Shown here: in pieces, positions 11,901-25,573 of the stretch
How the letters are laid out: each line of letters opens with the position of its first letter
How positions within the stretch are numbered: the stretch's first letter is position 1
Virus record (IMG/VR): IMGVR_UViG_3300023284_001118
Coordinates: 1-25,573 of that record
Direction: 5' to 3' (one strand)
DNA: 25,573 nucleotides
Source of the DNA: a virus
Notes under the pieces: model-generated
The model's input: only the letters and a program-made list of their open reading frames with translations
What the model was told of the DNA's origin: nothing
The model's database searches: none
Program-made: the position numbers and the translations under genes

Positions 11901-12382
11901 ATGCCAGTGACTCCAGTTACGTAAATGGTCTCGAAGGCATCAAGTGTCCCTGGATCAACAGTGACATCAACACCGCTGTAAGTCAGCGTAATGTTGGTCC
12001 CATCGTCTGAGATGTCGTCAATAGTGGCGGCTAACGCAGTGCTGGCGAACCCAGTCTTCCGGAAATTGCTCTCTCCAACAATGATGATGCGACCACGCAC
12101 CACCTTGAACCCGTGCATACTCGTCATCCGCACGAACGAGAAAACATCTGACGTTCGGCCGCTGAGTTCACGATGTCCATCGTTGAACTCCATGATGGCG
12201 TCGACGTTGACGACACACTTGTAGCCTGGGAAACTACGGATCTCTGTGCCGTCTGGTGAGACGTACCCGTTCATCAGGGCTCGCCATCTCCGATCACCGC
12301 GGTTGAAGTTGACTTGACGAGACATCCCTCGCCAGACACCAGACCGAGGCTTCAGTGAGACGGCATTCGTAGGGTCAGCCAT
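8948..12382 (-). CDS. Large nozzle / tail-tubular-protein-B-like structural protein
   Basis: 1144 residues. The N-terminus (about 20-60) has a run with QVNFNRGDRRWRALMNG and then a phrase about the sequence start and a Pro-Gly turn. Together with the position right after the adaptor, this recalls tail tubular protein B (T7 gp12-like) and related podovirus nozzle proteins, which often begin with an 'R-x-x-P-G' element. The body is beta-rich throughout. Near 760-790 is WISDRGPVAIIGGALEWIG, a blade-like beta segment of the propeller type seen in nozzles. The protein is longer than T7 gp12 (about 800 residues), so extra domains are likely. The call rests on gene order and fold-like features rather than a diagnostic motif. 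The ATG follows the upstream TAG by five bases, with a weak AGGTG. Confidence 0.6.
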   Translation of the reverse strand: MADPTNAVSLKPRSGVWRGMSRQVNFNRGDRRWRALMNGYVSPDGTEIRSFPGYKCVVNVDAIMEFNDGHRELSGRTSDVFSFVRMTSMHGFKVVRGRIIIVGESNFRKTGFASTALAATIDDISDDGTNITLTYSGVDVTVDPGTLDAFETIYVTGVTGIFASILNNLYHRVTATTPTSTTVELDTTLGGSGGLDTADGNGSFVKTRVENDDLDSLTTWSHEGPAGITSPLNATNVANVANRQRDWGPLPAVSGPDASNFQEGHRNGPTDAGSDYHSRRRQRVLPFRTNLEALGDRVLIAAPGYGVVFQAPVVIPVKTSATHGGGAGAPLRYNDLYDMPRSLGVPKAVALLTTSFTTNTDPRQEAGTYLVRIAFKDQGTGEEGLPSEEMEVTVPTSGLGQQLLPSFLIPGYYLSETLANTVRVYVSKRDVQGVNFLGVYEFSSDVTAETKFGLPSSANPSDASVTGSRILDVFDSDPGDAVLADPDVQVDANQGPDIVAQMPMGCKVLATVRGVTFFGGNVGDTGINLEMQHGTLSANFEGSSAGSLIPDPNWDNNSTIAHAFIDIDYTSQGTQWNVAHHIIPPAYAGQLVFSPGVDSSDVTGLFPSPVEFMRLDKYDLTQTNDIVASGGTTTPEEWFIRWKMEEIVHKAQFLLEHRIGIDNLDAYLLLPVGQVWWSEAGVPGAVPAVNRLFLDAKDDEDLEAIGRLGNSVVFCTRTQTSTMSWSNNPLGADPSLLSSEFGAIAPDMVEFDGGVAWISDRGPVAIIGGALEWIGREVEALFSGVNARYLRDGRGLMPHSWGAHDPERGLIYFGMRADRLTFTVNGNTYPNATDGDRSKFPCDEVLVWSYRNNAWSIWQPPSNLQIFDMERILCDDGVYRMAFLTGERSSTAEGNDFFNEPRIFAMDDAWADTNTQPVTAIASTGKTSSNIFDVSASTFNTAGNTTPAQIQTNLGNDTFTRVGMRALLISLANNSFTLLGETSITAVGSDTQVTLADSFTWAAGDILYVGTPQAMRLETFEESWGTSKRPTKINSSAHRFSQNSTFVTNDVDSPTVTEVDFDNFVAQGRPSPSFLQARAITENATVQLGGDQFRTMGFAIGLGRQARTERGTNRGQDTRLEFTYYGGQQIRINDIEIELGIAGS

Positions 12383-12387
12383 AACAC

Positions 12388-13752
12388 CTAAAAACCCGTG
12401 ATGGGTGTCGTGAGATGCTTTCCAAACGGGATGTGAACAACCCGTCTACGCGCCTGCAGCTTCACCTTTGTCGTGCGGTTGAGCCTGTTCATGTCCTGAC
12501 GCATCTGTCTCAGCTTCTGCTGGAACCGGGCCATCGTCTGGGCATGGAGCGAGTCGTTGGTATCAAACTCAGCCACCCGCATGATGGTCCCGTAGACCAC
12601 AGTCTCTGTGTAACGTCTAGGGATGGGGCACGGATCAGCGTCAACGTCCATACGCTGATACTTCATCTGGTAGTGGACTCGCAGACGTCTTCCCTTGGCG
12701 TTGTAGCCTTTCTCAAACACGATCTGAGAGACTTCGTTGGCTAGCTTGCCAAGGAACTGCCACGGTGCAGAGAACTCCCTCTCCACGTCTACGATGGTAA
12801 AGATCCTGTCGATGTAGGTGGGAAGGGTTACCACGCGGTCAACGGTAGGAATGAACGTCAACTCCTCGACGACCTGCATGAACCACGCTACATCTCCCAC
12901 CTCGGTGATGATTTCCTCCACCGTGGAGTTGATGATCTCGTTCATGAAGACGGTGTCTCCAGCCCTATCGGTGCCGGTAGACGAACCGTCCATGCGAGTC
13001 AGGACGTTGGCTCTGATCTCTCCAAGGTTATGACGGTCCTTGATCTGGACGTCATCGGGCTCTCGCTCTTCGATGTCGTCGCCATGAATCTCGGCAACCT
13101 TGAGCGTGCGGAGAGGGGCTTCATCGAAGTGGAAATACCACTGCCCGAGCGCGGAGCCTGTAAGGTCAAAGGAATCTCTGTGATCGACGTATTCGAGGTT
13201 GGGGGTGTCGTCGTCGTCCTCGTTGACGTAGGCCCTGACCCGCGTACCTCCCTCTACAGGAGTCGCTATCAAACGGATCTCCTGGAGCACGTTCAGGTCC
13301 GAGCTGGACTGGGAGAGGATCTGAGCCGTTGTCAGCGTCACCGTGGCTACAGAGGTAGGAGAACCACCAGCTGTAATCGCCGTGCCGTCGTCCCTGATAA
13401 TCTCGAGAGTCCGGACGCTGTTGTTGGCGTAGGTCAGCCGGACGCCGTATCCCCAGCTGGCTCCGTCTGCGAGCGAGTAAAGCCCTACGATGATCCTGTG
13501 GTTGTCGGAACCAGAAGCCGGTGTCTCTGTGTTGAACGCGACAAGAGCCCTAACCCTCTGCTCATCCGTCGTCGGTATGGTTGTGGCTTGCTGCGCCTGA
13601 ACAGCGGCTGAGGCCACGGCGTTGGTGGCAAAGGTGTTGAACAGTTCAACAATGCCGAGAGGGGTAGTCCCGTCGTTGTCGGTGGTGAAGCCGAGATCGG
13701 CGTCCAGATCAGCGATGTCAGCCTGTGCGAAGCTCTGAGAGTAGCTAGTCAT
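12388..13752 (-). CDS. Head-tail adaptor (tail tubular A-like) with an N-terminal LamG-like domain
   Basis: 454 residues from ATG 13752. This start makes an ATGA overlap with the preceding gene. Its first 18 residues (MTSYSQSFAQADIADLDA) recur in the chimeric gene at 14125, where they also begin exactly at a GTGA overlap. Those two facts outweigh the four-residue-longer alternative at 13764. Residues about 25-240 look like a jelly-roll/LamG domain (SWGYGVRLTYANNSV, FHFDEAPLRTLKVAEI). From about 250 to the end the protein is helical, then beta-rich, then basic-helical (VEEIITEVGDVAWFM, LRQMRQDMNRLNR), consistent with a podovirus gp11-like adaptor that joins portal and nozzle. It lies directly before the nozzle-like gene. 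Confidence 0.6.
   Translation of the reverse strand: MTSYSQSFAQADIADLDADLGFTTDNDGTTPLGIVELFNTFATNAVASAAVQAQQATTIPTTDEQRVRALVAFNTETPASGSDNHRIIVGLYSLADGASWGYGVRLTYANNSVRTLEIIRDDGTAITAGGSPTSVATVTLTTAQILSQSSSDLNVLQEIRLIATPVEGGTRVRAYVNEDDDDTPNLEYVDHRDSFDLTGSALGQWYFHFDEAPLRTLKVAEIHGDDIEEREPDDVQIKDRHNLGEIRANVLTRMDGSSTGTDRAGDTVFMNEIINSTVEEIITEVGDVAWFMQVVEELTFIPTVDRVVTLPTYIDRIFTIVDVEREFSAPWQFLGKLANEVSQIVFEKGYNAKGRRLRVHYQMKYQRMDVDADPCPIPRRYTETVVYGTIMRVAEFDTNDSLHAQTMARFQQKLRQMRQDMNRLNRTTKVKLQARRRVVHIPFGKHLTTPITGF
13699..13752 (-). repeat. Direct repeat copy 2: true 5' end of the adaptor gene
   Basis: The adaptor's own first 18 codons. After the common GCCGA the sequences part: the adaptor continues with its LamG-like domain, the chimera with the zinc-ribbon tail. 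Confidence 0.85.
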
Positions 13753-13976
13753 TTGTTCGTCCAACCCACTGGAATAAACAGGTCGCTAGTCACTGGCCCA
13801 ATGTTTGCGAATGGCACTGGGGGGTCAGGCGGATGCGTACACTCAGGATGATAAGGCCCCTCATGCCCGTGGACGATATAACTGGAGTCTTCGATGAGAG
13901 AGGTGTTGACGATGGGGCGCCCGCAGTAACAACACCTAGGATCGCGGTCGGTCTTATTAGTCACTTCTTGCAGCAT
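13749..13976 (-). CDS. Small zinc-finger-like protein in a repeat-flanked cassette
   Basis: 75 residues from ATG 13976, which overlaps the chimera's stop as TGATG. Cysteines at 15, 16 and 18 (CCYCGRP) and H36, H38, H43, C46 (YHPECTH) give a C-x2-C plus H-x2-C arrangement typical of treble-clef or LIM-type zinc knuckles. No catalytic His-Asn-His set of an HNH nuclease is evident. The C-terminus is Pro-rich and then hydrophobic. The gene is bordered on one side by a copy of the zinc-ribbon gene's 3' end and on the other by the adaptor's 5' end. The unrelated 60-residue gene next door has the same borders. I infer an accessory cassette; function unknown. Confidence 0.6.
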   Translation of the reverse strand: MLQEVTNKTDRDPRCCYCGRPIVNTSLIEDSSYIVHGHEGPYHPECTHPPDPPVPFANIGPVTSDLFIPVGWTNK

Positions 13977-14071
13977 CACTTATCCCCCCACCAACATCCA
14001 TGCTTCTTGAAGAGGTTCGTGCCGTCCACCTTGAGCAACGTCCCCGCAGCAACCTCCTGGGATCGAGACTC
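13976..14071 (-). repeat. Direct repeat copy 2: zinc-ribbon 3' end inside the chimera
   Basis: Second copy of the 96-base 3' segment, forming codons 19-49 and the stop of the chimeric gene. In this copy the following gene is the zinc finger; in copy 1 it is the 60-residue gene. Confidence 0.85.
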
Positions 14072-14125
14072 GGCGTCCAGATCGGCAATGTCAGCTTGTG
14101 CAAAGCTCTGAGAGTAGCTTGTCAC
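13976..14125 (-). CDS. 49-residue chimeric protein: adaptor N-terminus fused in frame to zinc-ribbon protein C-terminus
   Basis: GTG start at 14125 overlapping the previous stop (GTGA); TGA at 13976-13978 overlapping the next ATG. Residues 1-18 match the adaptor's first 18 residues exactly, apart from the GTG start codon. Residues 19-49 match the last 31 residues of the 152-residue zinc-ribbon protein with only Q-to-E and Y-to-F changes. In the first part all five internal codon differences are synonymous; in the second, eight of ten changed codons are. The joint falls at GCCGA, shared by both parents. It may be an expressed mini-protein or merely an intact recombination joint. The conserved reading frame and tidy overlaps favour translation. 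Confidence 0.6.
   Translation of the reverse strand: MTSYSQSFAQADIADLDAESRSQEVAAGTLLKVDGTNLFKKHGCWWGDK
14072..14125 (-). repeat. Direct repeat copy 1: adaptor 5' end inside the chimera
   Basis: Codons 1-18 of the chimera match codons 1-18 of the adaptor (13699-13752) at 48 of 54 bases by my count. Differences are the start codon and five synonymous third positions. Confidence 0.85.
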
Positions 14126-14304
14126 TTCTCTTCCCCTTCTTGGCCGTTCTTTATCTTGTCCATGAGCGCACGAACTTCTTCATGGTCCGGTATTCCCCCG
14201 AACTCCCCCTCCAATTCGTAATGCAACTCTTCCCCGATGCACTGACCTTCTAGGATGTAGAGGGCGTTGACAATCAGCAACTGTTCACGCTCCGTAAACG
14301 TCAT
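14122..14304 (-). CDS. Small hypothetical protein in a repeat-flanked cassette
   Basis: 60 residues, acidic and almost certainly helical (TEREQLLIVNALYILEGQ near the start, KIKNGQEGEEK at the end). The ATG overlaps the zinc-ribbon gene's TGA (ATGA), and the stop overlaps the chimera's GTG (GTGA). No family is recognised. It has no visible similarity to the 75-residue zinc-finger gene that occupies the same place in the second repeat unit, so the two look like alternative accessory genes. Confidence 0.55.
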   Translation of the reverse strand: MTFTEREQLLIVNALYILEGQCIGEELHYELEGEFGGIPDHEEVRALMDKIKNGQEGEEK

Positions 14305-14396
14305 TTGTCACCCCACCAACATCCATGCTTCTTGTAGAGATTCGTGCCGTCTACCTTGAGCAACGTCCCCGCGGCAACTTGCTGTGACCTAGACTC
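14301..14396 (-). repeat. Direct repeat copy 1: 3' end of the zinc-ribbon gene
   Basis: The last 31 codons plus stop of the zinc-ribbon gene. They match 13976-14071 at 84 of 96 bases by my count, and most differences are at third codon positions. Confidence 0.85.
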
Positions 14397-14759
14397 AGCA
14401 ACCAACAGCTCCCGGGGCATGGAACCCACTCGCCTGAACAGCTTGCCATTGAGCTTCCCAGTAGAGGTTCCTTGAGCACGCTTCTCCCGCCCATCCCGGT
14501 AACGCTTATGGGCAACGACCTTCCTGTAGATCTCTTCCTGCTTGTCGTTGGACCGTTGGTATGCAGCCAAGTTGATCCCGGGGAGCTTGAGGCTATCCCT
14601 CTTTCCCTCTCCACGAATGATCACTCCTGGAGTCGTCCATTCGCGGTGACGCATCCCGCCGCACAGGCACGCGAAGCTAGGAGGTGGTCCCTCGTTGATG
14701 CTCCTCTGAAGTTCCGTGGACTTCCCACAGCCATCGCATCGGTAGTCGTATCGAGCCAC
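14301..14759 (-). CDS. FmdB-like zinc-ribbon protein
   Basis: 152 residues. The first 50 follow the FmdB/CxxC-CxxC zinc-ribbon plan: an aromatic-rich strand (RYDYRCDGC), C8 and C11, then C31 and C33, and a TPGVIIRGEG strand. The second knuckle is C-x-C rather than the usual C-x2-C. The rest is basic and helical (about 70-115). It ends in a module, residues 122-152, with VAAGTLLKVDGTNL and KKHGCWW, which recurs in the chimera downstream. GTG start at 14759 with GGAGG 7 bases upstream. It lies between the major capsid protein and the adaptor, where podoviruses often carry small head-completion or accessory proteins. A structural or regulatory role cannot be decided. Confidence 0.6.
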   Translation of the reverse strand: MARYDYRCDGCGKSTELQRSINEGPPPSFACLCGGMRHREWTTPGVIIRGEGKRDSLKLPGINLAAYQRSNDKQEEIYRKVVAHKRYRDGREKRAQGTSTGKLNGKLFRRVGSMPRELLVAESRSQQVAAGTLLKVDGTNLYKKHGCWWGDK

Positions 14760-14783
14760 AGATCCCCCTCCAAGAGGAAGGCA

Positions 14784-14799
14784 GGGGGCCGAAGCCCCC
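14784..14799 (-). terminator. UUCG-tetraloop hairpin downstream of the major capsid gene
   Basis: On the minus strand GGGGGC-TTCG-GCCCCC forms a perfect six-pair GC stem closed by the extra-stable C(UUCG)G loop, 21 bases after the capsid stop. It is followed by TGCCTTCC rather than a T-run. It probably acts as a partial terminator or as a 3' barrier that protects the abundant head mRNAs while letting some transcription continue into the tail genes. Confidence 0.65.
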
Positions 14800-14819
14800 C
14801 ACCAAGCGTAGGACAGGTT

Positions 14820-15899
14820 TTAGACGTGTCCGTCAACCAGCAGGATGCCGGCCTTCGGGTTGTCCACTTGGAACCCGAAGTCGATGACGCACATTCCCTT
14901 GGTGCTGTGGCCAGTCTTGGCCAGCGGGATGAAAGTCAGACCCTCAAGGACCCTGATGCGGAACATCGTCGGATCAATGATGATCACCATCTCATCGGGC
15001 GGCTCAGAGTTGGTCACAACAGCGGACTCAGTCACGGACGACCCGAGGGCGACCGTGGTGCCGCTGTTCATGCGGCGGTCAATGTTCATGTAGATCGTGC
15101 CGAAGTCCGTCTCGAAGATGTCAATCGTGTCGATCAACGTCCTCTCACGGGCTCCGATCCGTCTCTCATTGAGCGGGACCGCCGTATCGGTTGTTGAGCC
15201 TCCGTCGAAGACAAAGGCAAACTGGCTGATCAACCTCTTCATCTGGGATGGGACCAGGGCCACCGCCCCAGACAGGTCCATACCCCCTACGTGAGCAGGC
15301 TGCAGCAGGTTGTCATGAAGTTGATCACGGGTCAGATCAGCACCAGCGTTGTCCGAGTAAGTCGCTCGGAACGTCGATGTCGTGATCGTGCTCGCCGCGA
15401 TTGTGGCCGCTGACGCTGTGGTCAGGCCTGTTGCATACAACCAGTTGGCCAGACCATGTGTTCTGGCCGGTACCGAGGATCCTACCAGCGCCTGAAACTC
15501 GCTGAAGTGGCACGCATAGTCGGCCTGTTTTAGCGTCTCAAGGAACTTCTTGTAGATCTGGTAGGAGAACTCGTCGTCCACGCCAGCCTCGAGCATCTTT
15601 CGCTCGGTGTCACTGACCTGCACTGGGCGGGTGACGATGTGGTTGAAGTTGGTTGCGCGTTGCCTTGCGGTCAGCGTTGGGAACACCGCATCCACGCCTT
15701 CCTCACGGGCGAAGTCGCCGTCGGTCTGCGTTGTTTGTTCCGCGTCAATGTTGTCCATCGACCAGTCGAAGAGCGTGTTATGAGCAGGCTCTTTCTCCAG
15801 CAGATGGAATAGCGGAGTGTCGTTGGGGCTGATGATAGCTATACGATCAGCCAGATCCTCACGAATGGTCGTTGAGGATTCAGTCAAAAAGACGGGCAT
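14820..15899 (-). CDS. Major capsid protein, SU10/DUF5309-like
   Basis: 359 residues. The N-terminal part has the pattern REDLADRIAIISPNDTPLF followed by TLFDWSMDNI (about 13-51). This is the signature I associate with the SU10-type major head protein family (DUF5309), which forms the HK97-fold shell. Later parts are beta-rich with a typical P-domain feel (DLSGAVALVPSQMKRLISQF, IFETDFGTIYMNIDRRM), ending with a compact beta segment. Length fits the family. Gene order supports the call: portal, scaffold, this gene. The ribosome site AAGGAG is inside the last codons of the scaffold gene, 10 bases before the ATG. A 12-base palindrome covers scaffold stop and capsid start. Confidence 0.88.
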   Translation of the reverse strand: MPVFLTESSTTIREDLADRIAIISPNDTPLFHLLEKEPAHNTLFDWSMDNIDAEQTTQTDGDFAREEGVDAVFPTLTARQRATNFNHIVTRPVQVSDTERKMLEAGVDDEFSYQIYKKFLETLKQADYACHFSEFQALVGSSVPARTHGLANWLYATGLTTASAATIAASTITTSTFRATYSDNAGADLTRDQLHDNLLQPAHVGGMDLSGAVALVPSQMKRLISQFAFVFDGGSTTDTAVPLNERRIGARERTLIDTIDIFETDFGTIYMNIDRRMNSGTTVALGSSVTESAVVTNSEPPDEMVIIIDPTMFRIRVLEGLTFIPLAKTGHSTKGMCVIDFGFQVDNPKAGILLVDGHV

Positions 15900-15909
15900 A
15901 GGCGCCTAT
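15898..15909. promoter_or_regulatory. 12-base palindrome spanning scaffold stop and capsid start
   Basis: ATAGGCGCCTAT is a perfect palindrome that holds the TAG stop of the scaffold gene and the first bases of the capsid ATG. It could be a weak translational hairpin or a protein site. Chance is also possible. Confidence 0.3.
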
Positions 15910-16766
15910 CTCCTTCGTCCCCTTGGGGTCGTTTCAGTGAATATGTCGTCCTTGATCGTGTCGATCAGAGCCCTCTTCATACCTACCTTGTCACGCGCCC
16001 TGGCTGTGCGGACGAACTCCTCGTCCAGCTTCTGCCTGGCTGTCTTCGTGGACTGTTCGGGCTCTTGCTCTGATCCTGGAACATTGACGACATGAGACGA
16101 GGACAGTCCATCGTTGGCTGTCCCAACCCCCTTGAAGAGGTCGGAATGGCGTCGTTTAGCTACGCTGACCAGGTCTGGCCCGGGCAACCCGGGAGCTTCC
16201 TCTCGAAGCTGTAACAACACAGCCATCTGCTGGACATTCCACCTGTTTCCTGTTGCCTTGATCAGAGCCCGCTCTGCACGTTGCATGGCGATCTCCTCAC
16301 GATCTTCAGGAGACAAGTCGGTTTGCGCAACTTGGCGCTGTGCTGCCTGATCCGCTAGATACGCGAGTTGCCGTTCTGCAGGCATCTTGTCCCATCCATC
16401 TGGCTTCTCCTCTAGGAGAGCCTCTAGGCGGGCATCCTGCTCATACGGCTTCATCCGTTCCGCACTCTTCTTGAGAGCTGCAAGTTCCTTCTGCGCCTTG
16501 TCCAGTTCGCCTTGAGTAGCCTTGTGCTGCTCATTGACTTCCTGGAACCGTGCATAGGGAACGTGCTTGTCTTCCGAGGTGCCATCGGCCAAACGACCGG
16601 ACTCCTCGTCCTCACCCCGGGGAGACGAATCCCCAGCTACGTCCGCTTCGGGCTCGGTACCCCCAGCAACTTCTTCATCTCTCGGGTTGTTCCCAAGGAC
16701 CATGTCCTTGATATCTGTCTGTATAGACTTCTGAGTTTGCTTCTGTTCCTGGGTCATTCGTGCCAT
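15906..16766 (-). CDS. Head scaffolding protein
   Basis: 286 residues. A disordered acidic N-terminal third (about 28-68) leads to VPYARFQEVNEQHK (69-82), a phrase characteristic of many phage scaffolds. A Lys/Glu/Ala coiled coil follows at about 76-125, and a basic C-terminus ends PRGRRR; scaffolds usually contact the coat protein through such a basic end. It acts by guiding capsid assembly and is then expelled or degraded. No protease motif is visible, so this is not a protease-scaffold fusion. GGAG precedes the ATG by 8 bases. It is immediately upstream of the major capsid gene. Confidence 0.85.
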   Translation of the reverse strand: MARMTQEQKQTQKSIQTDIKDMVLGNNPRDEEVAGGTEPEADVAGDSSPRGEDEESGRLADGTSEDKHVPYARFQEVNEQHKATQGELDKAQKELAALKKSAERMKPYEQDARLEALLEEKPDGWDKMPAERQLAYLADQAAQRQVAQTDLSPEDREEIAMQRAERALIKATGNRWNVQQMAVLLQLREEAPGLPGPDLVSVAKRRHSDLFKGVGTANDGLSSSHVVNVPGSEQEPEQSTKTARQKLDEEFVRTARARDKVGMKRALIDTIKDDIFTETTPRGRRR

Positions 16767-20118: not shown

Positions 20119-21848
20119 CTACCTGCCCTCTTTGCGAGGTCACCCCAGAACGAGTCTGGGTTGCCATATCCTGCCCTAGCGTCCACCCTCTGGTCAATCC
20201 CGTTGATTCGCTCGGTCATGGTTACCGCCGCCTGTCCGCGTGTCCGCCCCTTGAACCGGCTCTTTCTGCGCTTCAGCCTATCTGACCGCATCCGCGACAT
20301 CGGTTGGCAGAACCGGGTGCCGATGTTGTCTCGAGACTCGATGTCGGCCAACGCGTCAGCGATGTCTCTCTTTCCGTAGGCCGGGAAGCGCGTAAACTCC
20401 TTGACCAACTCACCATCTGGGTAAGGGTGCCCCTTGTCGTCCCTAGCGCCTTCGGGATCCCACAACACCCTTTGCTTGCCAAGGTCCCTGTAGTAGCGGT
20501 CCACGGTGTCCAGGACCAGAAAGTGTCCTTGGGCAATCCGACCCGTCATGGACTTGATGCGCTGGACCTTACTTGCGTCGTTGCCAGATCTTGGGACCTC
20601 GAAGAAGTGAGGCAGGATGACGCGCCGGGCACGGCCCTCAGCCTCGATCATGGACTTGAAGACCTTGGTCAGAGTGACCTTCTCCATGAGCACACCCCTG
20701 ATTCCGACTTTCGGCTCCCAGCGGTTGATCATGTCGTAGAACTGCGTCACGAACTCCTGAGGGAGCCAGTGGCCTACCCGGAGGTCTGCCAGGTAGAAGC
20801 GGTTGGTGTCGTCCAGACCGCCTATAGCCACCACGCTGTAGCAGTTCTCTTCCTTCTGGGACACAGCGACGTCGGTGAAGATGTAGAAGGGCATCTCCTC
20901 CATCCAGTCCTCCCACTTGGCAGAGCGAAAGTCTCTGGCGGAGAAGAAGACTCGGCCCGCACCGATGGGGTTGTTGCAGTACTGAGAAAGGAAGCCGTGA
21001 ACGCCTCCCTCCTTGTCGGTCATGCCGTCGAGCTTCTCCTTCAGGAACTCCTCTGGCATGTGCTCAAACCGCGGCTTGCCGACCAGCATAAACTTGCCGG
21101 TCTCAATGTCCTTCTCGGGATACATCCCACAATCGATGATTAGCTTCTTGCAGCGATGCTCAAGGTACCGTCCGATGAACCCATGAAGGTCCTCGTCATG
21201 GTATCGGGTCCCGCAGTCTATGATTACGCCACCGGGATCAAGAAGGGGTTGGCAGAAGCGAAAGATGTCTATGACCTTCTCGATCTGGTCGGGGTTCCTG
21301 GAATTGAGGAGGGTGACCAAGTCATCAAGGAGGATGATGTCGAAGTGACCACCTACCGTGTTCTTGTCAACTCCAAAGCACGAGAAGGTCTCATTGTCGA
21401 GATCGTGCCGCGTTCGGCTGTTGAGTGTGAACGCGGTTTGACCCCACGGCTCACCCTTGAGGTTCCCGAAGACCTCTACAAACTTTTCGTTGCTGGTAAA
21501 CGTCTGACGAATGGACAGTAGCTTGCGTTGCGCTTCCACCATCTCTGCCATCCCGTAGAGGATGCGGATGTTGGGCCTCTTCAGCGCAATCCGAGTTGCA
21601 TAGGCCTTGAGCAACGTCGTCTTGTAGCAACCTCTCGGGGCCTGCAGCATCTTGAGCCGCCCCTCAGAGTCTATGAACGTCACCATCTCCTGGTGAGGGC
21701 CGTAGTTTCGGATGCCGCCTGTCCCGATGTTGTGCTCCTCTCCCGTGATCTCGTTCTTGTCGGAGTTGTAACCCAGCACGTTCCTGGCAAGGAACCCTGT
21801 GTCGGTCAGGCAACTCTGGATGAACTCACTACCGCGGTTCTCGGTCAT
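20115..21848 (-). CDS. terL: Terminase large subunit (packaging ATPase-nuclease)
   Basis: 577 residues, the usual length. The ATPase has a Walker A-like QAPRGCYKTT (69-78), which lacks the Gly normally before the Lys; an adjacent hydrophobic strand with Walker B DIILLDD (170-176); and GTRYHDED (213-220), the coupling-motif region. The RNase-H-like nuclease follows, with likely metal-binding acids D326 (YIFTDVAVS), E389 (VLMEKV) and the DIADALAD cluster near 495-502. It pumps DNA through the portal and cuts concatemers. The ATG overlaps the LamG-like gene's stop (ATGA). No small subunit is visible in the window. Confidence 0.92.
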   Translation of the reverse strand: MTENRGSEFIQSCLTDTGFLARNVLGYNSDKNEITGEEHNIGTGGIRNYGPHQEMVTFIDSEGRLKMLQAPRGCYKTTLLKAYATRIALKRPNIRILYGMAEMVEAQRKLLSIRQTFTSNEKFVEVFGNLKGEPWGQTAFTLNSRTRHDLDNETFSCFGVDKNTVGGHFDIILLDDLVTLLNSRNPDQIEKVIDIFRFCQPLLDPGGVIIDCGTRYHDEDLHGFIGRYLEHRCKKLIIDCGMYPEKDIETGKFMLVGKPRFEHMPEEFLKEKLDGMTDKEGGVHGFLSQYCNNPIGAGRVFFSARDFRSAKWEDWMEEMPFYIFTDVAVSQKEENCYSVVAIGGLDDTNRFYLADLRVGHWLPQEFVTQFYDMINRWEPKVGIRGVLMEKVTLTKVFKSMIEAEGRARRVILPHFFEVPRSGNDASKVQRIKSMTGRIAQGHFLVLDTVDRYYRDLGKQRVLWDPEGARDDKGHPYPDGELVKEFTRFPAYGKRDIADALADIESRDNIGTRFCQPMSRMRSDRLKRRKSRFKGRTRGQAAVTMTERINGIDQRVDARAGYGNPDSFWGDLAKRAGR

Positions 21849-22705
21849 CGGATGTGCCTTCTGATTCCTCTCATCAGCCTGCGAGTAGCTCCCTTCTTGG
21901 CAGCCATGAGATCCATGATGTGAGGCTTTCTACGATGAGGGTTTCTCCATCCCCTACGCTGCCCGCCACGGCCAGAACTGGCGAGCCCTAGCAGGCCCTC
22001 AGAGAGCGTCACCCGCTCGCTGGCGGACAAAGCCCGCTTGTAAAACCCCCACTGGAAGAGATCGCCCTCCCAATAGAACGCGGCGGGCTGAGTGTGGGCG
22101 AAGTTGCCCAGCGCGCTGTTCACCGCGTCTACGCTTCCAATCAGCGAGATGTCGGCAGGGCTACTCGCACTCTCGGCCAGCGGGGTGGACACAGAGCCGT
22201 AAAAGGCTCGGAAGTTGCTCCCGTCCCGCTGCGCCATGACGACCCAGGTCGTGGTGCCGTCGTCGAATGTCTCATCGGCGCCTGTCACGCTCGCAATGTC
22301 CACGCCGTCCGCAACCCCGATCAGGATGCTGGTATTGAGGGTCAGCAACCAGTTCGCCGCGGGAGAGGACCCGTCCGCCTGCACCCAAAGAATGTGGTCG
22401 ATGTCAGAGCTGGCAGTAACCCTGACCGAGGCGAACACCGTAAAGTCTCCAGAGCCCGGCTGCAGCACGTCGTTGCTCTCGACGTCCGCCATCCAGTAGG
22501 CGGCGCCATTGAAGTGTAGCGCCTGGATGCCGCCCACGGTCACGATGGTGGGCTTGTTGGCGAGAACCGTCTGCTCGTAGGTCTTCGCCGTCGTGCCCTT
22601 GTTGGTGATGGCCTGGCAGCGACCGGAGGGATTTTCAGTGATCGTCGAAGTGTCCGAAGCGTCCCACCATCCGGTCAAGTTCGGAATCGAGTCAGGATCC
22701 GCCAT
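21845..22705 (-). CDS. LamG / concanavalin-like protein with shared Arg-rich C-terminal module
   Basis: 286 residues. Residues 1-240 match the plan of phage LamG-like proteins: IPNLTGWWDASDTSTIT at the start, strands such as FTVFASVRVTASSD, TTWVVMAQRDGSNFRAFY, and a closing GDLFQWGFYKRALSASER. Such jelly-rolls bind carbohydrate or decorate virions. From residue 244 the protein switches to a basic module with SGRGGQRRGWRNPHRR and then RRLMRGIRRHIR. The same module ends the upstream beta-helix protein. No signal peptide is seen. AGGTG lies 5 bases before the ATG. It sits directly before terminase, an unusual place for a tail-fibre-like domain. Confidence 0.7.
   Translation of the reverse strand: MADPDSIPNLTGWWDASDTSTITENPSGRCQAITNKGTTAKTYEQTVLANKPTIVTVGGIQALHFNGAAYWMADVESNDVLQPGSGDFTVFASVRVTASSDIDHILWVQADGSSPAANWLLTLNTSILIGVADGVDIASVTGADETFDDGTTTWVVMAQRDGSNFRAFYGSVSTPLAESASSPADISLIGSVDAVNSALGNFAHTQPAAFYWEGDLFQWGFYKRALSASERVTLSEGLLGLASSGRGGQRRGWRNPHRRKPHIMDLMAAKKGATRRLMRGIRRHIR
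21848..21976 (-). repeat. C-terminal Arg-rich module, copy in the LamG-like gene
   Basis: Encodes 43 residues. The first 16 (21929-21976) are identical in protein to those at 22803-22850 but use different synonymous codons in most positions. The remaining residues are weakly similar with conserved Arg/Met spacing. Confidence 0.85.
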
Positions 22706-22712
22706 CGCGCAC

Positions 22713-23888
22713 CTAGATCCCTTGCCGCCTTCTGAACCTTCTCATCATTCTGTCGGTTTCCAGATCCTTAGCGCGCATCCTCATCATGAGGTTGGTCTTC
22801 ATTCGACGATGCGGGTTTCGCCACCCCCTACGTTGTCCACCACGTCCGCTGACGACGGCCGGAAGAGGGGTGCCATCCGCTCCAGCATCCCAGGCTCCCG
22901 CTGCGGCTCGTGTGTCGCCTGCAATGTCCTCCGAAATGGAGATGTTTTCGGGGAAGACTTCAGCGGTCAGGTTGTTACCAAACTCTATAGCTGCGTTATC
23001 CGTGCGCGTGACCGGTTCAACCAGACGCAGATCTTCGGTACCTGCTGTAAGGTTCGCGAACATGACCCGGGTACCAGCCCCTCCAGTCCCAGCTTGGAAC
23101 GTAGCACTTTCGATCAGATCCCCAGGCAACCCTTCGGTCGTGCCCGACCCATCGCTGAGGATATTCTGATCACAGCCAGCATTCCAGGGATCACCAGACC
23201 CTGCCGTGATGGTAATGGCAGCAGCTAACGCGTCTGCGTGAAGCAGGGTGTTTCTCATATCAACATCGGTAGTTGAAGGACTGTCGATGTCGAGTGCGGC
23301 ATGACCGGCACCATCCCTTCCCACGTTCCACACCGTGTTGTTGTAGATCCGAACCGTATGACCAATGCCATCAAGGCTAATCCCATGCCGATCGCAGTTG
23401 TAGATCGCGGTGTTGATCAGATCGACCGTGCAGTTGTCCGCGCTGGTCAGGAAAAAACCGATGCCTTGGTCCCGCATGATCAGCTTGTCCATGTGCAGGA
23501 ACATATTGTCCGCTGTGGAGTTGATCCTGAGGCATGGACGGAAGTCGCTAGGCACAGAATCCGAGAGTTCAAGCCAGGTGACATGTGCGTGATGGGCTGT
23601 ATTCTGGAAGATGATAGGTATGGTGCTGGCCGAAACAACACGGGCACCTGTTCCGGCGGTGCCGTCATGACGAGCTGCGGCGTTTTCCGCGTCAATCCAG
23701 ATGTAGCGTGTGGCATCTGAAGCCCACGTTGTTCCTATAGCCACCTCGCCCGTATGCAGCTCATCCTTCATCGCCGCACGAGCGATCTTGTCAGCAACTA
23801 GAAGATCTGTTCTCTCTCCGGAGTCCCAAAGCGCGAGTGTCGCGTAATCGGCTGCGGTGCCGACGGTGTTGGAATCTACAGTGACCAT
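22713..23888 (-). CDS. Right-handed beta-helix-like protein with shared Arg-rich C-terminal module
   Basis: 391 residues from ATG 23888, four bases after the upstream TAA; the longer frame to 23945 would need a TTG start inside the previous gene. Residues about 100-280 have beta-helix-type rungs with repeated short strands and Asn/Asp turns (CTVDLINTAIYNCDRHGISL, HTVRIYNNTVWNVGRDG). Such folds are typical of phage tailspikes and decoration proteins, some with polysaccharide lyase activity, but catalytic residues are not evident. Residues 347-391 form the Arg-rich module (SGRGGQRRGWRNPHRR, then RRFRRRQGI) also found in the LamG-like protein. It belongs to the accessory structural group upstream of terminase. 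Confidence 0.7.
   Translation of the reverse strand: MVTVDSNTVGTAADYATLALWDSGERTDLLVADKIARAAMKDELHTGEVAIGTTWASDATRYIWIDAENAAARHDGTAGTGARVVSASTIPIIFQNTAHHAHVTWLELSDSVPSDFRPCLRINSTADNMFLHMDKLIMRDQGIGFFLTSADNCTVDLINTAIYNCDRHGISLDGIGHTVRIYNNTVWNVGRDGAGHAALDIDSPSTTDVDMRNTLLHADALAAAITITAGSGDPWNAGCDQNILSDGSGTTEGLPGDLIESATFQAGTGGAGTRVMFANLTAGTEDLRLVEPVTRTDNAAIEFGNNLTAEVFPENISISEDIAGDTRAAAGAWDAGADGTPLPAVVSGRGGQRRGWRNPHRRMKTNLMMRMRAKDLETDRMMRRFRRRQGI
22716..22850 (-). repeat. C-terminal Arg-rich module, copy in the beta-helix gene
   Basis: Encodes 45 residues; the first 16 (22803-22850) are identical to those of the LamG-like protein. The following 29 keep a pattern of Met, Arg and Lys with about ten alignable identities, showing that the homology extends to the stop codon. 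Confidence 0.85.
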
Positions 23889-23892
23889 GGAA

Positions 23893-24243
23893 TTACGGCC
23901 CCAGCGCCGGGTTGGCCTTACGCAAAAGGGCGTTCGGGTTGACAACCGTTAGCGTGCGATTTTGAGCGATCTCGGCAGCCTGAGGTGGTAGGAAGTTCAC
24001 CGCCAGCAAACGCAAGGTGTCACCAGTCAGGTCGTCTACGTTGGTCTCCATGAAGTCGTCGAAAGCTGCCGTCGGAGATCCCGGCGAATGCACACTGCGA
24101 AAGTTGTTGTTAGGTCGGCTGTTCCAGCCGGTGACCGTATTTGGGTCCTCGACGACCTTAGTGCCGGGATGAACGCCGTCGGCCAGGTTGGCAACGACTA
24201 CGTCGCCCTGCCCGGGACGGTTGCTGAGGATGACATAGGCCAT
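23893..24243 (-). CDS. Hypothetical small virion-associated protein
   Basis: 116 residues beginning MAYVILSNRPGQGDVVVANL. The N-terminal half is probably beta-rich, with a Pro/Asn-rich middle (TGWNSRPNNNFRS); the end is helical and then Pro-rich. No family is recognised. The start has AGGTGA four bases upstream, just after a hairpin and a possible 9-codon leader. It lies four bases before the beta-helix gene, so the two are probably co-translated. Confidence 0.6.
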   Translation of the reverse strand: MAYVILSNRPGQGDVVVANLADGVHPGTKVVEDPNTVTGWNSRPNNNFRSVHSPGSPTAAFDDFMETNVDDLTGDTLRLLAVNFLPPQAAEIAQNRTLTVVNPNALLRKANPALGP

Positions 24244-24354: not shown

Positions 24355-24642
24355 CTAGTAAGGAATCGTCCCCATGGTGACCAACCCCTGGAGGACCTTG
24401 CGGTCAGCACGACCGGCCTTACTCCACGACCTTGACACTACCTTGTACTTGAGCCAGCCCTCGCCCTGACGACGTAACCCTACAGCTCGCCCCATGTCAT
24501 GAACAATCTCGAACGAGGTGCCTACCGGCAGAGGGCTGGTGATGTAGACGATGCAGGACTCGTCACTCTCCCTGAAGTACTTCCAGAGCTTCTGGTATCC
24601 CGGGATCACGTCCTTGGCGCTGCGCTCAAGGTCAGCCGCCAT
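24355..24642 (-). CDS. Small hypothetical protein
   Basis: 95 residues. The start overlaps the preceding gene by 11 bases. The N-terminal 30 residues look helical (DVIPGYQKLWKYFRES); the rest alternates strand-like pieces (CIVYITSPLPVGTSFEIVHD, GWLKYKVVSRSW) with basic turns. A small beta-barrel-like structural or adaptor role is possible, but nothing specific is seen. It ends the first gene group before the 111-base spacer. Confidence 0.55.
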   Translation of the reverse strand: MAADLERSAKDVIPGYQKLWKYFRESDESCIVYITSPLPVGTSFEIVHDMGRAVGLRRQGEGWLKYKVVSRSWSKAGRADRKVLQGLVTMGTIPY

Positions 24643-24658
24643 AGGCCTTGACCTTGCG
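24632..24658 (-). repeat. RKVKAYGG-stop direct repeat, copy in the small basic gene
   Basis: 27 bases matching 24880-24906 at 24 positions. The three differences are synonymous third bases in the Tyr and two Gly codons. Confidence 0.75.
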
Positions 24659-24883
24659 GGAATAATCGAGAATCCTCGTCCGGCGACGTCGAAACTCCTC
24701 AGGATCGAATCGTCTCCAACTCAGCCAGTTGAGACGCCCTGTCTTGCGGTTTCTTACTCGGCCTCGATACATCACAACAACACCGTCAACAACCGCCTCT
24801 TGAACCTCATGCGGCCCCCACACCCGTATGGCACTTCGATAACCGCCCCCAGGGCGGATGACGGCGTTCTTCGGCGGTCTCAT
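24632..24883 (-). CDS. Small basic hypothetical protein ending RKVKAYGG
   Basis: 83 residues from ATG 24883, which overlaps the glycosyltransferase stop (ATGA); the 25-residue-longer frame up to 24958 merely reads through the other gene. It is Arg-rich (VRNRKTGRLNWLSWRRF, EEFRRRRTRILDYS). The last eight residues, RKVKAYGG, and the stop are the same as those of the upstream gene, with 24 of 27 bases equal. The gene thus looks like an insert bounded by a direct repeat of its neighbour's 3' end. Family not recognised. Confidence 0.6.
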   Translation of the reverse strand: MRPPKNAVIRPGGGYRSAIRVWGPHEVQEAVVDGVVVMYRGRVRNRKTGRLNWLSWRRFDPEEFRRRRTRILDYSRKVKAYGG

Positions 24884-24906
24884 CCCCCGTAGGCCTTGAC
24901 CTTGCG
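24880..24906 (-). repeat. RKVKAYGG-stop direct repeat, copy in the glycosyltransferase gene
   Basis: The 3' end of the glycosyltransferase-like gene. The copies are 248 bases apart and enclose the small basic gene. Confidence 0.75.
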
Positions 24907-25573
24907 AATGGGACCCTTGTTGTGCTCTGAGAAGGCCCCGAGCGGCGTGTGCGGCCACACATGAAGGTCGTGGACGTGATCAGAAAGGCTCACCTGACGC
25001 TCTGTCAGGATCTGGGAACGGCCCAGACACAGATCGAAGACCATGGAATCGTGCCACTCGGGCAGGGTGAAGACCTCAGGCTTGCTGCCGAGGTAGCAGG
25101 ATCGCATGTCCAGTAGCATCATGGTGACAGCGGGGTCATCGAGGTTGAAGGCTATGAAGCCCGTCTCTGAATGCCTGAACTTGGGACGGCCAAGATAGAC
25201 GAGCGAGGATATGGAGGCCAACTCGTTTCCCTTGAAGAGCGGATGGAACAGATGGATGAAGTCCACCGTTGGCGGAGCAGTGAAGACGATGTCAGCATCA
25301 AACCAGACAAACCATCCGGTCGTCTCCAGCATGTTGGACATGGCAAAGATCTTGCGAGAGAACTTGATGGCTTGCCGTCGGTAGTTGTCTCCGCTCTCAA
25401 GGTGATGGAAGCGTTCCTTGAACTCCTCTGCCTCCTTGTCCTCGGTCAGGTCTCGATGGTGCATCAACACCCCGCTCTCAAAAACGTATGGTTCCGACCC
25501 ATCGTTGAAGAGATAGAGAGGGAACTGCCAGCCGCTCTCTTGGTAGGAGCTGACGAAGCAGGTTCCATACTGC
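24880..25573 (-). CDS. GT-A-like glycosyltransferase, 5' part outside the window
   Basis: The frame is open through the right edge, so about 230 residues are visible and the true start is beyond; in-frame GTG 25470 is not the start, because the upstream residues (YGTCFVSSYQESGWQFPLYL) read as normal protein. The key motif is TTGWFVWFDADIVF, a DxD-type metal/nucleotide-sugar site after a hydrophobic strand. It is followed by a HSETGFIAFN strand-loop and WHDSMVFDL, arranged as in GT-A fold transferases. The donor and acceptor are unknown; phage versions may modify virion or host glycans. It ends in RKVKAYGG, repeated in the next gene. It is the first visible gene of the long operon. Confidence 0.7.
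   Translation of the reverse strand, partial: QYGTCFVSSYQESGWQFPLYLFNDGSEPYVFESGVLMHHRDLTEDKEAEEFKERFHHLESGDNYRRQAIKFSRKIFAMSNMLETTGWFVWFDADIVFTAPPTVDFIHLFHPLFKGNELASISSLVYLGRPKFRHSETGFIAFNLDDPAVTMMLLDMRSCYLGSKPEVFTLPEWHDSMVFDLCLGRSQILTERQVSLSDHVHDLHVWPHTPLGAFSEHNKGPIRKVKAYGG

Follow-up and report, generated by a model that had tools for sequence, protein, structure and literature searches.

Two small genes in series between repeated gene ends in the head-to-tail operon of an uncultured SU10-like phage, a probable recombination scar

In an uncultured SU10-like phage, the head-to-tail operon carries two unrelated small genes in series at a place for a single one, each between copies of the same flanking gene ends, with an open, in-frame chimera of those ends lying between them. 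We hypothesize that this segment is probably the scar of a non-allelic recombination between two related SU10-type phages, in which both cassettes were kept. The phage is represented by a virus record from IMG/VR, and the window analysed here is the whole stretch of 25,573 bases.

The window contains an SU10-type portal, major capsid protein and adaptor, in this order (PF23899, PF17236 and PF24175 matches), which is the order of the SU10 head module. No tRNA or Rfam match was obtained within the window. The gene order read earlier on the minus strand also holds: zinc-ribbon gene (14759-14301), 60-aa gene (14304-14122), 49-aa ORF (14125-13976), 75/76-aa gene (13979-13749) and adaptor (13752-12388). 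The features of the segment, in the direction of reading, are the following.

14820..15899, minus strand: SU10-type major capsid protein, the upstream neighbour (Pfam PF17236, E 7e-51)
14301..14759, minus strand: FmdB-like zinc-ribbon gene, 152 aa (TIGR02605 E 3e-7; Pfam Zn_ribbon_8 E 2e-5)
14301-14396, minus strand: repeat 1, first copy, the last 96 bases of the zinc-ribbon gene (sequence comparison)
14122..14304, minus strand: 60-aa cargo gene, its ATG overlapping the zinc-ribbon stop as ATGA (ORF and junction sequence)
13976..14125, minus strand: 49-aa chimeric ORF, its GTG overlapping the stop of the 60-aa gene as GTGA (ORF list and repeat comparison)
14072..14125, minus strand: repeat 2, first copy, the adaptor 5' end within the chimera (48/54 to 13699-13752)
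14070..14079, minus strand: putative junction zone of about 10 bases, where both homologies overlap (overlap of repeat families D1 and D2)
13976..14071, minus strand: repeat 1, second copy, the zinc-ribbon 3' end within the chimera (84/96 to 14301-14396)
13749..13979, minus strand: 75/76-aa cargo gene with CxxC...HxxC-type motifs, its start overlapping the chimera stop (ORF and junction sequence)
13699-13752, minus strand: repeat 2, second copy, the first 54 bases of the adaptor (sequence comparison)
12388..13752, minus strand: head-to-tail adaptor, 454 aa, SU10_adaptor domain at about aa 241-425 (Pfam PF24175, E 7e-6)

The repeat counts given in the initial annotation, 84 of 96 bases for the zinc-ribbon 3' end and 48 of 54 for the adaptor 5' end, proved exact, and chance repeats are excluded by self-BLAST (E = 4e-28 and 3e-16, respectively). 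The repeats are in register on both flanks of the cassettes and meet at about 10 bases. A crossover site of about ten near-identical bases had been proposed, and the two repeats do overlap by 10 bases, at 14070-14079, where the sequence reads GACGCCGAGTCT in the chimera, GACGCCGATCTC in the adaptor and GTTGCTGAGTCT in the zinc-ribbon gene.

A point missed by the initial annotation is that the joint leaves an open reading frame. It consists of adaptor codons 1-18 followed, in the same frame, by the final 31 codons of the zinc-ribbon gene, 49 aa in all, and reads VTSYSQSFAQADIADLDA|ESRSQEVAAGTLLKVDGTNLFKKHGCWWGDK (adaptor part | zinc-ribbon part); at either end it shares a 4-base RTGA start/stop overlap with its neighbour. 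All four junctions of the segment, as read from the sequence, are 4-base overlaps (ATGA, GTGA, GTGA and ATGA), and they stay so because the chimera is in frame and brings with it the adaptor start overlap as well as the zinc-ribbon stop and the purine-rich stretch GGTGGGGGGA, which lies in the second copy of repeat 1, upstream of the 75/76-aa gene. We infer that the 60-aa and 75-aa products are accessory and would be co-translated. As an in-frame joint is expected by chance one time in three, frame alone is weak evidence for selection.

The two cargo genes had been described as unrelated, and this is confirmed at the protein level, where their alignment score of 24 (shuffle mean 20.5) is reached by 84 of 500 shuffles; the nucleotide alignment lies slightly above shuffles (13 of 500 reach its score), which we take as no real similarity. 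The gene earlier called a 75-aa zinc-finger gene has 76 aa from the GTG at 13979 or 75 aa from the ATG at 13976, and its zinc finger is suggested only by a Cys/His motif, profile searches giving no family match for either cargo protein. The predicted structure of the 76-aa protein is of low confidence (pLDDT 40.8).

The zinc-ribbon gene falls below the curated FmdB cut-offs (30.3 vs 31.3 bits for TIGR02605, 24.7 vs 34.4 for Zn_ribbon_8), so that its FmdB likeness is a resemblance only, and the predicted structure of its product is likewise of low confidence (pLDDT 47.5). The PF24175 match of the adaptor is marginal (27.1 bits, cut-off 27). The adaptor starts at the ATG at 13752; in 75 of 81 surveyed relatives the adaptor ORF has 197-235 aa vs 454 aa in the window, which, with a domain start near residue 241, indicates a long extra N-terminal region of about 240 residues compared with most relatives. 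The repeated 18 codons are contained in this region.

The divergence between the repeats bears on how the segment arose. Over 48 codons (start and stop codons excluded) they are separated by 15 synonymous changes, about 0.48 per synonymous site, and 2 non-synonymous changes, about 0.018 per non-synonymous site, and identity is alike in both repeats (87% and 89%), as expected from two parental lineages. These numbers indicate coding constraint on the repeats and would argue for divergence within intact genes ahead of the joint; selection on the chimera once it was formed would produce an identical 15:2 pattern. If 8 of the 17 changes are placed on an unconstrained chimera, 2 or fewer non-synonymous changes are obtained with P of about 0.002; with 5 changes (about a third) on the chimera, P is 0.07, which is not significant. 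The pattern therefore appears compatible with a recent joint of diverged intact genes or with a selected chimera, and does not separate these two; a recent non-allelic junction between related phages would account for it better than an ancient duplication whose scar is neutral.

The proposed event would have involved two parents about 87-89% identical in this region, each with a zinc-ribbon gene, one small gene and an adaptor, the small genes being different. The adaptor start of one parent would have been joined to the zinc-ribbon end of the other at about 5-10 bases of microhomology, either by direct crossover or by integration, through homology, of a circularised slot fragment, two routes that are not distinguishable; the outcome would be both cargo genes in series with the chimeric 49-aa ORF between them. 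Recombination between the repeats would be expected to restore either single-cassette form. Recombination between two phages had already been put forward in the initial annotation, and it is partly supported, by a geometry such as a non-allelic crossover would leave and by the near-purely synonymous divergence; rival explanations still stand beside it.

One of them, which we regard as unlikely, is a tandem duplication of the slot within one lineage, through unequal crossing-over, after which one cargo copy gave way to an unrelated gene or changed into one beyond recognition. Tandem duplications through unequal crossing-over are documented in bacteria (PMC3784515) and would yield an identical flank geometry; however, this explanation requires a second event for the unrelated cargo genes, and it requires constraint on the chimera to account for 15 synonymous vs 2 non-synonymous changes. 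We give a similarly low probability to the chimera being a selected small protein or translational bridge, in an arrangement that is old and maintained and not a recent scar. In its favor, the ORF is in frame and open, 29 of 31 and 17 of 18 residues are identical to the source ends despite 11-13% nucleotide divergence, and start/stop overlaps are found on both sides. The same pattern is nevertheless predicted by a recent junction of two diverged parents, an in-frame junction arises by chance one time in three, and a conserved chimera was not found in any relative, in collections without a close relative spanning the slot. A junction artefact, in which the assembler or an amplification step fused two strain variants of the sample, is suggested by the metagenomic origin of the record and by the short homology at the junction. 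It is very improbable: typical assembly k-mers are much longer than these roughly 10 bases, and the fusion keeps the reading frame and an overlap at either end.

Searches by DNA or protein of phage, viral-contig and genome-contig collections gave no close relative spanning the slot. The queries were DNA and the capsid, adaptor, zinc-ribbon, both cargo and terminase proteins for the phages, the adaptor, zinc-ribbon, capsid, terminase and portal proteins and the pattern KHGCWWGDK for the viral contigs, and the adaptor and terminase proteins for the genome contigs. In the same collections, none of whose records spans the slot, no single-cassette relative, second parent or relative with a conserved chimera was found; as such collections may omit very near records, the missing close relatives are no evidence of absence. 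The sole close relative is locus L005 (terminase 72% and portal 79% protein identity), which ends inside the portal gene. Before its terminase, L005 has a partial 435-aa ORF (L005:2-1309) with internal repeats of a FLVETLRLARQQDPEEPPKPR-type unit.

More distant loci were also surveyed. The set comprised 80 loci collected by capsid protein alignment and eight complete related phages; in the capsid-adaptor interval of the surveyed loci, 78 ORFs form one family of about 100 aa. Among the 80 loci with an ORF in this interval, this family stands alone in 44, an extra gene lies between it and the adaptor in 24, extras are found solely before it in 10, and it is absent in 2; the 24 insertions are not independent, since this region is almost the same in several loci. 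These counts, 24 loci with an extra gene next to the adaptor and 44 with no extra, indicate that the operon has an insertion slot roughly just before the adaptor. The zinc-ribbon C-terminus was considered as a divergent member of the conserved family of about 100 aa, and the likeness proved motif-like; with E 0.093 and an hhalign probability of 0.5%, membership is not claimed. The equivalence of the slots is consequently one of position, and the hotspot for small-gene exchange proposed earlier gains support at the family level (24/80), although homology between the conserved small gene and the zinc-ribbon gene is not demonstrated.

Common 3' ends are also seen in two more pairs of adjacent genes in the window. 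At 21845-23945 (minus strand), upstream of the terminase, a 410-aa (beta-helix-like) gene and a 286-aa gene have a common C-terminal tail, SGRGGQRRGWRNPHRR (46 bases, 82.6%), and a related tail ends the gene before the terminase in L005; it is possibly an attachment tail on exchangeable domains. At 24632-25470 (minus strand), a glycosyltransferase-like gene and the next, 83-aa gene both end in RKVKAYGG* (gene ends at 24880 and 24632), with 24 of 27 bases identical. In an annotation-free scan for stop-anchored shared ends within 1.6 kb, the zinc-ribbon pair scores 60, the adaptor-start repeat, on the opposite strand, 30, and the RKVKAYGG pair 18, while an indel between its tails keeps the 410/286 pair out of the scan; the same scan of eight related complete phages gave nothing above 13. 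Among the repeats inspected in about 930 kb of related loci, no comparable gene-end repeat was found. When 28 repeat pairs from these loci, hand-picked from the repeat list with loci of many overlapping repeats left out, were checked by ORF, 18 proved to lie within a single ORF, and the remaining pairs include none that links two gene 3' ends in the manner seen here. These observations hint that gene-end repeats are a recurrent mode of gene gain in this genome, but with three cases, all from a single genome, no mechanism is established. It is rather doubtful that this lineage repeatedly gains genes via short repeated gene ends and that the chimera is a maintained translational bridge, through which two alternative accessory genes are expressed from one slot.

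The usual product of phage mosaicism is one gene replaced by another, whereas here both alternatives are retained in tandem. The exchange itself is of the same nature, since genes pass between phages by homologous, relaxed or illegitimate recombination (PMC8136500). Serial accumulation of alternative modules, each with a fragment of conserved flank, is also seen in the displacement of Rhs C-terminal tips in the E. coli rhs loci, for which recombination through a circular intermediate was proposed (PMC2935791). However, Rhs tips are 3' modules of a gene, displaced behind an intact core gene (PMC2935791), while in our segment both cargo genes are complete, the setting is a phage virion operon, flank copies lie on both sides and an in-frame fusion lies between. 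In the T6SS immunity-gene arrays of V. cholerae, alternative genes are likewise added stepwise at one locus with the old genes left serially, and homology-facilitated illegitimate recombination was proposed for their successive addition (PMC5361080); that evidence comes from multiple strains, whereas ours comes from one genome, in which no effector-immunity logic is seen. In the passages of PMC4503421 that cite Arbiol 2010 and Comeau 2014, T4-type PeSL cassette shuffling is a further likeness, small genes being exchanged through repeated boundary sequences; the boundaries described there consist of promoter and stem-loop, and here it is the coding ends of genes in the virion operon that serve as boundaries. 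The interval 12300-16000 gave no promoter-like site, and the terminator-like sites near 14780-14803 and 15890-15907 lie away from the cassette boundaries, which are thus not of the PeSL type. The first of these sites, on the minus strand in the interval between the capsid and zinc-ribbon genes, is a strong terminator-like hairpin of 10 pairs.

Taken together, the process looks like ordinary recombination of a known kind, in unusually clear form. The segment resembles an intermediate of phage mosaicism, with both alternatives of a slot in series, a joint readable to about 10 bases and start/stop overlaps preserved. Close relatives would make it directly testable which parents took part in the event, in what direction it went and how old it is, and the predicted reversion products, in which either cassette would be lost between the repeats, bear on the gain and loss of small genes in phage structural operons.
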